DNA of 64,000 nt. It comes from Calditrichia bacterium. Its GTDB lineage: Bacteria > Calditrichota > Calditrichia > RBG-13-44-9 > J075. How positions within the stretch are numbered: position 1 is the stretch's first letter; every line of letters starts with the position of its first letter. Location of the stretch: assembly GCA_028284905.1 (NCBI GenBank), contig JANQQU010000084.1, positions 124,001 through 188,000 of the forward strand, in the 5' to 3' direction. This document shows positions 51,285 through 54,899 of the stretch, piece after piece. A program made the position numbers and the translations under genes. The notes under the pieces were generated by a model. That model was not told the origin of the DNA. It saw only the letters and a list, made by a program, of their open reading frames with translations, and searched no databases.

Positions 51285-53303
51285 TTAAAGTTTTTCCGCC
51301 AACCCCTCATACGCTTTCTGAAACGGCAACATCGGCGCATTGAGTACGCCGGCGCCAATCTGCCCCACACCGGGATCTTTGTGGGCAACGCCAGTATCAA
51401 TAAAGGGGAGAATGTTTTTCTCTACCACCTGAATCGCATCAATCCCAGTCGGCGTGCCGCGGAAGTTGAGGTAGGGGATTTGAAAGACGTTATTCTCGGC
51501 AGCGGAAATTTCATACATCTTTAAAGAATAGCTGACTGCATCTGCGGCACTACCGCCGACAAACTGCACAATTGCCGGGGAAGCGGCGATTGCGAATCCG
51601 CCCAGTCCACCGGTTTCGGTGATGGCGCTATCCCCGATATCCGGATTTGCATCCTCCTTGCTGTAGCCGGGGAAAAAGAGGGCATCCGGCAAGGCCGCTG
51701 GTCCGGTAAACCATTGATCCCCGGTGCCGGCGAGTTGAATTCCGAAATCGGTGCCATTGCGCGCCATAACCGTTAATACGCTACTATCGGGAATGCCACG
51801 GGCGGCATCGAGCATCGCTTTGCAAGCGGGCATTGAAAGATTGAGGAAGAAATGATCGTTGCCGTTGATGAAACCAAGCACATCGGCGGCTGTTTTTCGA
51901 TCCGTCGCTGTTTCCACGATTGAAGGCGCTATCGTTCGATAAAACAAGGACGTCGCGGCGCGATTGCGATTATGAACCTCATCACCCATGTGCAATGCCT
52001 GCGCGATGAGATTTTTCAGGTCGATGCTGCCGTGCTTTGCGACCGCTTTCTGCAACGCCGGGTAAAGCACTTTTTCCATCCAGCGGAGTTTCTCGATCAC
52101 TGCTTCACTAAACGCGCCATATCTTAACACTTTCCCCAAACCTTCATTCATCGTGCAAAAAGCCTGATTTCCAGAGGCTTGATTTTCGACGATAAATACC
52201 GGCATGGAAGGTGTGATTAGTCCGGCCATCGGTCCAACCGATTGATGCTCGTGGCAGGGGGCAAATTCGATTTCTCCGGAAGCGCCGAGTTTTTCTGCTT
52301 CCGCCGGTGTTTTGGCCAACCCTTCGTAAATCAGGCCGCCGATTACCGCACCGCGCATTGGGCCGCACATGCGTTCCCAGCTTACCGGCGGACCGGCATG
52401 GAGAAACAGTTTCTTGTGCATACCGGGAATCACAGCCAGTGCCGTTGAAAGCCCAGTTAAATGGGGCATACCGTTAAGAATTTTTTCCATCGCCTGTTTA
52501 TTTGCTTTGGCAATCCTCTCACGATTTTCGTCGATCTGTTTTCGAGCGTTGTCATTCATTTCTGCGGGAGGTTGCCAATCGAGCTGCACTGCTGGTGTGG
52601 CGGTTTCGTCCAGACCCTTTTTGAGCGCTGGCAGGCCGATGTTGATAACTTGTAATTGCTGCTGAAAAAGTTTTTCGATGGACATTTTAGTGCTCCGCTC
52701 TTCCGGGAAATGTTTTGAAGCAGATTCCGGAGATTTAAATTTTTTGTATACTTCAGCAAATGATTCGATCGGGTGCAATTTGTCAATCCGGATGTGATGA
52801 CAGTGATAGCCGCCATCGCCGCCAAACTTGGAGCCGAAATCCCGCTTCGGCGCAGCGTCGACTTCGGCGGCTGTCGCATATCCACAAACATATGCCCGGG
52901 TGCCGGGGGAAATCTCCGCTGCCGTTCGTGTATCGACATCGATGATAATCTGCACGTAAAATGCCGGCTTGCGTTTTTTCGCATAATCTTCCCGAACCAG
53001 CAAATTTAACTTTTCACTAAAAGGGAAAGCCGAGGTCTTGATTTCGATATCTTCAAAATCGGACTCGCCCCGGTTCTGGCCAACGCGATGCTGCTGCCAA
53101 TCCTGATAGAGATATTTGGCAAAAACGAATTCTCCCAGGTGACCGGTCAGCGTATCAATCCGCGAGGCGATGGTGCGACGAACGCGGGTCGCCGGGATGA
53201 GCCGCTGTGCTTCGGCAAGCATTTCTTCTGTGATCAGTGTAAACGGGTAACGGGGCATGGGTTCATTGTTCGTTGTTCGTTTGGCGTTGTTGAGAAAATT
53301 CAT
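51285..53303 (-). CDS. PD-(D/E)XK nuclease-like domain fused to DUF1116 (YahG/YlbE-like) protein
   Basis: One uninterrupted frame of 672 residues. Residues about 40-190 look like a restriction-type nuclease fold: GHLGE58, then ESDFED85-I-E87-I-K89-TS, the core of PD-(D/E)XK. Residues 207-672 are a complete DUF1116 protein (about 466 residues, near the 470 of E. coli YahG) with HEHQSVGPMAGLITPSMPVF and ETGGLGGFAIAASPAIVQFVGG. DUF1116 proteins work with FdrA in ureide/oxamate-type metabolism. An internal ATG at 52685 with its own GGAG could yield DUF1116 alone. The first ATG (53303) lies in a palindrome; ATG 53258 is an alternative. Confidence 0.75.
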   Translation of the reverse strand: MNFLNNAKRTTNNEPMPRYPFTLITEEMLAEAQRLIPATRVRRTIASRIDTLTGHLGEFVFAKYLYQDWQQHRVGQNRGESDFEDIEIKTSAFPFSEKLNLLVREDYAKKRKPAFYVQIIIDVDTRTAAEISPGTRAYVCGYATAAEVDAAPKRDFGSKFGGDGGYHCHHIRIDKLHPIESFAEVYKKFKSPESASKHFPEERSTKMSIEKLFQQQLQVINIGLPALKKGLDETATPAVQLDWQPPAEMNDNARKQIDENRERIAKANKQAMEKILNGMPHLTGLSTALAVIPGMHKKLFLHAGPPVSWERMCGPMRGAVIGGLIYEGLAKTPAEAEKLGASGEIEFAPCHEHQSVGPMAGLITPSMPVFIVENQASGNQAFCTMNEGLGKVLRYGAFSEAVIEKLRWMEKVLYPALQKAVAKHGSIDLKNLIAQALHMGDEVHNRNRAATSLFYRTIAPSIVETATDRKTAADVLGFINGNDHFFLNLSMPACKAMLDAARGIPDSSVLTVMARNGTDFGIQLAGTGDQWFTGPAALPDALFFPGYSKEDANPDIGDSAITETGGLGGFAIAASPAIVQFVGGSAADAVSYSLKMYEISAAENNVFQIPYLNFRGTPTGIDAIQVVEKNILPFIDTGVAHKDPGVGQIGAGVLNAPMLPFQKAYEGLAEKL
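52683..52696 (-). promoter_or_regulatory. Internal ribosome site before the DUF1116 part
   Basis: On the minus strand GGAGCACTAAAATG places a GGAG eight bases before an in-frame ATG (residue 207). This ATG is exactly where DUF1116 homology begins, so a separate DUF1116 product is likely, or this is a remnant of a formerly separate gene start. Confidence 0.55.
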
Positions 53304-53378
53304 GAATTTTCTTTACTTGATTTTTTTGGCTCATGATTTTCTTTACTTGATTTTTTAGCTCGTGAATTTTCTTTACTT
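53300..53378. repeat. Tandem repeat, 2.6 units of about 30 bp
   Basis: Three successive units beginning TCATGAATTTTCTTTACTTG (53300-53330), TCATGATTTTCTTTACTTG (53331-53359) and TCGTGAATTTTCTTTACTT (53360-53378) fill the gap between fdrA and the fusion gene and touch both ends. On the minus strand each unit contains AAAGAAAA(T)TCATGA, so the start region of the fusion gene is itself repeat sequence. Confidence 0.75.
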
Positions 53379-54899
53379 TCGTTGTTGGCGGACCAGGCCG
53401 GCCAGTTGTGCAGCCGCCGCACTGGAAGGGGCGACAATGGCGCCAGCTTTTTCCAGGGTGGCAATGGTGCCGTGATAATTTTGTGGATCCAATTCTGTGC
53501 CGGTCACTGATGCGATTACCAATACATCTCCGGAAACTGCGGAAACTACATCCTTCAATTCCGAGGCGGGATCGGGATTGGCGCCATGCCCGAGGACAAT
53601 ATCGAGCAAAATGATCGCCGTTTCCGGATCGGCGGCTTCCCGTTGTATCCTGGCATTACGCTCACTGAAATCCAGCATGGGATGCGGTTTTCCGACGGTG
53701 AATTCATCTTCACCCATATCCAGTAGCATGTCTCCCTGGCTTTGCTGAATGTTTTCAAGGCGCTGACTGCTGCCAAACGGCACATTTAAATAGATTGGAG
53801 ATAAATTTTCCTGTAAAACAACCTGCGCTTCGCTACAAATCGTGCCACCGCTAAACAGACCGCGAATAAATTTTCTGCCCGGGGCGATGTTGCCAGCGAG
53901 TTTCGGGGCGATATCTCTCAACTGTTTTAATGTTTCCTCCTGGCAAGACTGATATTCCGCCGCTGAATCTCCGCGAGAAAGTGCGACAGCCTGCAACGCT
54001 GCCGCCTCCAGAGTCTTTGGTTGATCTTCCCCGGAGGATGCGCCTAAAAACAGAGTGACAATCGGCTTTGAGATTGAAGGGATTAAATCATTCAATTTTT
54101 CCTGCACGGAAAGATGCGGCGGTTTTGACACCAATAGAATGACTTCTGTTGCCGGATCTGCTGCCAATGCGATCAGTGCAGACTGACACATCAGTCCACC
54201 GATTTCAGCTTTGACATCGCGGCCACCAGTGCCGATTGCCTGGGAGATGCCTGCCCCGGCGTTGGAGATGGTGCAGGTAACCGCCTGTAATCCCGTGCCT
54301 GCTGCAGCAACAACACCGATATTGCCGGGACGAACCGCGTTTGCAAACCCAAGCGGCACTCCGTTTATGATTGCAGTGCCACAATCCGGCCCCATCATTA
54401 ACAACCCTTTTTCACGGGCGGTTTGCTTCAGGGAAAGCTCGTCTGCAATCGAGACATTATCGGAAAACAACATGACATGAAGGCCCTTTTCCAGTGCCTG
54501 CCGCGCTTCCCGGGCAGCATACAGTCCAGGAACGGAAATCAGGACGAGGTTGGCGTCGGGCAGTTGGGAGAGCGCGCCGGAAAGACTGCCAGGTTGGTAG
54601 TCGGCACTAGTGTTGTTTTGTTGACTGGCATTTGTCAGTAAATCGTCTACAGCTGTGAGGGCTTTTGCGGCCTGACCTGCATCATTAGCTTTGACAGCAA
54701 CAAGCAGATCATTGCCGCTACAGTTCTGAAATTCAGGAATCATCATGGCAGCAGCCTGGAGTATCTCCCGATTTTCTTTGGTGCCCATGACGACGGCAGC
54801 ATCTTCGATTTTAGCGGAGGTCCGCAAGGCCTTGGCGATATTCATCAGGGTGACGGAATCGAAATATTTTCCCTGGATGGTTTTTCCATAAATTTTCAT
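53373..54899 (-). CDS. fdrA: FdrA-like acyl-CoA synthetase family protein
   Basis: The 508-residue protein belongs to the FdrA family, built like succinyl-CoA synthetase. It has an N-terminal domain, a nucleotide/CoA-binding domain with KGLLMMGPDCGTAIINGVPLGFANAV (about 165-190) and GNIGVVAAAGTGLQAV, and a C-terminal ligase-like domain (RGLFSGGTICSEAQVVL; LDIVLGHGANPDP). In E. coli fdrA and a DUF1116 gene are neighbours and have been linked to oxamate transcarbamoylation in allantoin breakdown. Here the DUF1116 gene lies directly downstream. The third partner (DUF2877) and a carbamate kinase are not in the window. Confidence 0.87.
   Translation of the reverse strand: MKIYGKTIQGKYFDSVTLMNIAKALRTSAKIEDAAVVMGTKENREILQAAAMMIPEFQNCSGNDLLVAVKANDAGQAAKALTAVDDLLTNASQQNNTSADYQPGSLSGALSQLPDANLVLISVPGLYAAREARQALEKGLHVMLFSDNVSIADELSLKQTAREKGLLMMGPDCGTAIINGVPLGFANAVRPGNIGVVAAAGTGLQAVTCTISNAGAGISQAIGTGGRDVKAEIGGLMCQSALIALAADPATEVILLVSKPPHLSVQEKLNDLIPSISKPIVTLFLGASSGEDQPKTLEAAALQAVALSRGDSAAEYQSCQEETLKQLRDIAPKLAGNIAPGRKFIRGLFSGGTICSEAQVVLQENLSPIYLNVPFGSSQRLENIQQSQGDMLLDMGEDEFTVGKPHPMLDFSERNARIQREAADPETAIILLDIVLGHGANPDPASELKDVVSAVSGDVLVIASVTGTELDPQNYHGTIATLEKAGAIVAPSSAAAAQLAGLVRQQRK

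Follow-up and report, generated by a model that had tools for sequence, protein, structure and literature searches.

A putative type II restriction endonuclease joined in frame to the oxamic transcarbamylase subunit AllG in a Calditrichia genome

A minus-strand open reading frame of 672 amino acids (51285–53303) in the window, i.e. the whole 64,000-nucleotide stretch of DNA analysed here, joins a nuclease-like domain to a complete AllG (DUF1116) protein. Judged by sequence comparison, residues 16–191 are probably a restriction endonuclease (REase) belonging to a type II restriction-modification system of the separated kind; its gene was probably acquired alone and then joined to allG by the loss of its stop codon. 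The same genome encodes a methyltransferase of the presumably cognate family on contig 20, while the window is part of contig 7 (8.55-Mb near-complete genome, 93 contigs, completeness 100).

Organization of the fused gene

The open frame spans 675 codons and is stop-free inside; all features described below are on the minus strand. The first 15 codons (MNFLNNAKRTTNNEP; 53259–53303) lie outside the homologous region, contain a dispersed GAACAAC repeat and probably did not belong to the gene in its ancestral form. As the homologues start at 53258 and the repeat lies upstream, the nuclease start is probably 53258. The putative restriction endonuclease domain (52731–53258), which is 37–68% identical to its stand-alone homologues, is followed by a junction of 15 codons (PESASKHFPEERSTK; 52686–52730), which has no homologue and is of low confidence in the predicted model, and then by the 466-residue AllG with its own ATG (51285–52685). 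The GAACAAC repeat, with about 20 near-copies genome-wide, stands beside a 30-bp tandem repeat (53300–53378; 2.6 copies) that extends over the stop codon of fdrA and the spacer between it and the nuclease, and the two repeats may be a trace of the arrival of a foreign gene.

The AllG part comprises residues 207–672 and is complete. It is matched by PF06545 over residues 345–559 (E 1.5e-102; 342 bits against a curated cut-off of 27), with profile positions 1–215 of 215 covered, and by PDB 3CLQ over 408 of the 466 residues (E 4.8e-125). The preliminary description of a nuclease-type domain running without a stop into a full-length DUF1116 protein thus holds, as does its report of a separate ATG and GGAG for the latter. 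The ATG at 52685 coincides with the natural start of homologues (M..LF..VINIGL), as seen when AllG here (MSIEKLFQQQLQVINIGL) is set beside G051 (MNVENILKLF..LRVINLGL) and a separate module of G052 (MRKISDLFKQELKVINIGL). The Shine-Dalgarno-like GGAG (52693–52696; GGAGCACTAAAATG) lies 7 bases 5' of this ATG, a combination that chance alone would give about 7 times in 64 kb, so that it is weak evidence by itself.

AllG (YlbE, DUF1116) is a subunit of the oxamic transcarbamylase AllFGH (PMC11326118). Directly upstream of the fused gene lies fdrA (allF; 53373–54899), which encodes 508 amino acids (PRK06091, E 1.3e-136, model positions 7–490 of 555) and lacks the C-terminal module of about 50 residues. 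AllG is intact and single-copy in this genome, and allH is found on another contig (C12:5422–5739), so that allF, allG and allH are all present. The allH locus (contig 12:5404–6219) is a cluster with amidase-like, CoA-transferase-like and cyclase-like genes, apart from fdrA-allG. The module of about 50 residues (LF..VINIGL..V..DW.PPA) changes its host protein between species (loci L019, L020, L021 and L022): G003 and the PRK06091 model (497–545 of 555) have it as the FdrA C-terminus, G052 and G057 have it as a small gene of its own, and it forms the AllG N-terminus in G051 and here (52530–52685), where it is missing from the FdrA C-terminus (53373).

The junction and its products

As the 15 junction codons are spacer-like, the fusion is most simply explained by a lost stop codon. 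Two neighbouring genes share a frame with a chance of 1/3, and 16 spacer codons are stop-free with a chance of about 41%; the joint chance is about 0.14, so that one lost stop is enough and nothing else unusual is needed. The preliminary description had offered either two genes fused by stop loss or two products of one frame; the former is the simplest account. As AllG retains its start and GGAG, the cell could plausibly make free AllG as well as the 672-aa fusion. Any nuclease that is made must have AllG attached to it, unless cleavage releases it. Only one genome has the fusion, which is probably an accident, and no paper on a fusion of DUF1116 with a restriction enzyme was found in a literature search.

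The explanation that competes best with the favoured one is that the fusion is due to an artefact, or to a trivial mutation private to this genome, and that the real stop lies near codon 180 between two ordinary neighbouring genes. This is a possibility to be taken seriously, if an unlikely one. A run of six A (52740–52745) stands exactly at the end of the nuclease homology, and one extra base in it would end the nuclease two codons on as YKKI*, where the relatives end; a sequencing error or a one-base mutation is thus a serious rival. The absence of the fusion from every other genome searched, the joint chance given above, under which a single lost stop suffices, and the start and GGAG retained by AllG all agree with it. 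However, chance alone often puts a nearby stop into one of the remaining two frames, which makes the run weak evidence, and an isolated consensus error is a priori rare in a near-complete genome with long intact genes around the site. Programmed frameshifting at the run was rejected, as the run is short and no stimulator was sought or is known.

The nuclease-like domain and its relatives

Residues 16–191 have no match in Pfam, NCBIfam, PHROG, PADLOC or the PDB sequences, and no relative was found in phage and plasmid collections; the family, for which Pfam, NCBIfam, PHROG and PADLOC have no model, appears to be uncatalogued. Scanning GTDB genome contigs gave ten first relatives, 52–68% identical, in metagenome-assembled genomes labelled Bacteroidota, Ignavibacteriales, Chlorobiota and Chloroflexi, while four further relatives come from viral contigs and two (G269 and G788) from wider genome searches. 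All 16 are separate, stop-terminated genes of about 170–190 amino acids, and none is fused; the search for the same fusion in other genomes, proposed at the outset, thus returned the N-terminal region only as a gene of its own, which is one half of what the preliminary description named as refuting it. The homology runs from MPRYP (53258) to YKKFKS (52731), where it fades out; the junction has no counterpart. A chance open frame was rejected, as other phyla have separate genes to which the domain is 65–68% identical. So was a role in ureide metabolism, as the relatives lie beside methyltransferases or unrelated genes and never beside fdrA or allG; the methyltransferase linkage strengthens the preliminary view of a nuclease-type domain unrelated to that pathway.

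Three of the four core residues first named, E58 (53130–53132; in an invariant GE, on a helix in the predicted model), E87 and K89 (E87-I-K89, 53037–53045; an invariant E-x-K on a predicted strand), are invariant in all 14 aligned sequences. The fourth, D85, is replaced by other residues in 6 of the 14, and D82 (53058–53060), which is D in 12 and N in two, is the better candidate for the first acidic metal ligand. The domain contains a conserved acidic residue together with (D/E)-x-K, as PD-(D/E)XK enzymes do, and its spacing between the acidic residue and ExK is shorter than in known examples. Two AlphaFold models of the domain (pLDDT 80 and 84, pTM 0.77 and 0.82) place a helix (E58), a strand (E87 and K89), a strand, a helix and a strand in succession, and this predicted alpha-beta-beta-alpha-beta order is the general order of PD-(D/E)XK enzymes. 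Support for the proposed fold is indirect: with neither model did the fold search of the PDB return a significant match, the weak top hits including Sau3AI-C, MutH and EcoRV. The lack of a significant match to any solved nuclease and the N at position 82 in two relatives count against the REase reading. In a viral library, the fold search gave 43 matches at E < 1e-3, two of which are annotated as restriction endonuclease; these annotations count for little, as they are automatic.

The partner methyltransferase

Most relatives adjoin a gene for a DNA methyltransferase, which in the usual case belongs to a single type II family. The METHYLTRANSFERASE link, in which the nuclease gene follows a DNA methyltransferase gene of about 390–430 codons, is found in L009, L012, L013, L016, G269 and G788 and in the viral contigs (L024–L027), with a methyltransferase of one family throughout. 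In L017 the nuclease adjoins a different methyltransferase. A contig break separates the two genes in G065, with the methyltransferase ending 24 bases short of one contig end and the nuclease starting 24 bases into another contig; the two are thus probably adjacent. The partner methyltransferase occurs in nine of the ten first nuclease genomes, being unlinked in four (L010, L011, L015 and L018), and a mirror-tree comparison of nuclease and methyltransferase gave a correlation of r 0.68, which partly reflects shared ancestry. The common partner gives a full-length match to the PADLOC type II methyltransferase PDLC03325 (485–508 bits). Its DPFxGRGTT and SPPF motifs, together with hits to N4-cytosine enzymes in the PDB, suggest an amino-methyltransferase. 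Three of the viral loci (L025, L026 and L027) carry the methyltransferase-nuclease pair followed by an unassigned gene of about 160 codons and an apparent phage portal gene, and the pair there looks like a phage-borne restriction-modification system. At a further locus (L080; G201 C1:3395895–3396038), a short nuclease remnant with an internal TGA lies in the same neighbourhood as the complete methyltransferase-nuclease pair of L013, an apparent case of system loss.

The genome of the window encodes a methyltransferase of the partner family on contig 20 (C20:78507–79700; 60% identical, E 8e-163), which is its only PF01555 match over the cut-off. It is not adjacent to the nuclease gene, both genes lying in the interior of their contigs (7 and 20), and the two were therefore filed as a candidate separated system. 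No nuclease remnant was found beside the contig-20 methyltransferase, where only about 90 bp separate it from the next downstream gene. Type II REases are toxic when unprotected, so a protecting methyltransferase is to be expected. Linkage and co-occurrence with the methyltransferase, the present genome included, thus make the domain most likely the REase of a separated type II system; from the linkage in other genomes, the nuclease and the methyltransferase would recognize the same site. There are precedents for separated type II systems, and 57 separated restriction-modification systems have been predicted across Types I and II (PMC3488263); comparative genomics gives no proof, however, that R and M genes at separate loci work together (PMC4176335).

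It is also conceivable, though doubtful, that the domain is a methyltransferase-associated nuclease other than a conventional REase, such as a nicking or repair enzyme like Vsr or MutH, or a methylation-dependent nuclease. Its small size and the presence of MutH and Sau3AI-C among the weak structural hits are consistent with such an enzyme, and the methyltransferase can occur without the nuclease, as six related genomes show. However, several type II REases, e.g. PvuII, are equally small, and the gene pairs in viruses and bacteria have the usual type II layout. Vsr accompanies m5C methyltransferases, whereas the partner here has an SPPF motif and similarity of the N4/N6 type.

Origin of the nuclease gene

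The nuclease was found in none of 39 other genomes examined of the phylum, and it was therefore probably gained by transfer, landing between fdrA and allG. The partner methyltransferase is present in all six other members examined of the family, mostly with the same peptidase gene as its neighbour, and the copies of the family form one tree group with moderate support (75/86). The simplest history is that the methyltransferase was inherited and that the nuclease arrived later and alone in a lineage already protected; the alternative is that the nuclease was lost from the six relatives instead of gained here. With a GC content of 0.51 against 0.52 in its neighbours, the nuclease gene either did not arrive very recently or came from a similar donor. 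The retention of the solitary methyltransferase in all family members examined, mostly beside the DPP4-like peptidase, may point to a housekeeping role there.

The lost stop and the position in a foreign operon would also suit a nuclease part that is a dying pseudogene, surviving only as an N-terminal tail of AllG. This is improbable, as the domain retains 44 of the 45 columns otherwise invariant in the family, together with all catalytic candidates, and contains no frameshift.

Proposed sequence of events and function

In the favoured reading, the REase of a separated type II system, its gene would have entered, by horizontal transfer, a lineage in which the cognate-family methyltransferase was already present and whose DNA was thus probably already protected. 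The gene would then have been placed between fdrA and allG, and the later loss of its stop codon would have joined it in frame to the intact allG through 15 codons of former spacer. The 672-aa REase-AllG protein would be translated from 53258 (or 53303), while free AllG would probably arise from internal initiation at 52685. With E58, D82, E87 and K89, the nuclease would cut incoming DNA in which the shared site is unmethylated, and AllG would keep working with FdrA.

The fusion itself might be adaptive, with the predicted AllG homodimer joining two nuclease domains or with the nuclease tied to nitrogen metabolism; an equally remote form of this idea is a working bifunctional enzyme, in which AllG would scaffold the nuclease dimer or nitrogen control would set the amount of REase, while the resident methyltransferase protects from another locus. 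An AllG homodimer has been predicted by AlphaFold-multimer (PMC11326118), and the intact, single-copy AllG, the dimeric action common among type II REases and a nuclease without sign of decay fit this idea, but an adaptive fusion is very improbable given its occurrence in one genome only, stand-alone relatives that need no AllG, a spacer-like linker and an AllG with its own start.

If the REase reading is correct, the family, apparently uncatalogued so far, would add nucleases with bacterial and viral representatives to a known type II methyltransferase family, and the present genome would be a concrete case of a REase gene arriving alone where a methyltransferase of the matching family is already resident. 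The resident methyltransferase would explain the gain of a normally toxic gene without its antidote, and the fusion would be a clean natural test of the tolerance of a REase for a large foreign C-terminal partner.

Comparison with known systems

The domain resembles PD-(D/E)XK nucleases of the MutH, Sau3AI and EcoRV type in its helix with a conserved E and its D-F-x3-E-x-K, followed by a strand, a helix and a strand; the Foldseek hits to all three are weak, with no significant structural or sequence match. As in the separated type II systems with solitary restriction endonucleases (PMC3488263), the putative REase has no adjacent methyltransferase, and a distant solitary methyltransferase belongs to the family that partners orthologous REases elsewhere; unlike them, the REase here is in frame with an unrelated metabolic protein, and its cleavage and specificity are putative. 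The fusion shares with Type IIC enzymes, which carry REase and methyltransferase in one polypeptide (PMC4176335), the in-frame joining of a REase to another enzyme, whereas AllG, its partner here, is no methyltransferase and is not known to be connected with DNA. The metabolic side resembles the AllFGH oxamic transcarbamylase in that a full-length AllG adjoins fdrA/allF and allH is present in the same genome, and differs from it in that allH lies on another contig, the VINIGL module is carried by AllG and not by FdrA, and a nuclease stands at the AllG N-terminus.
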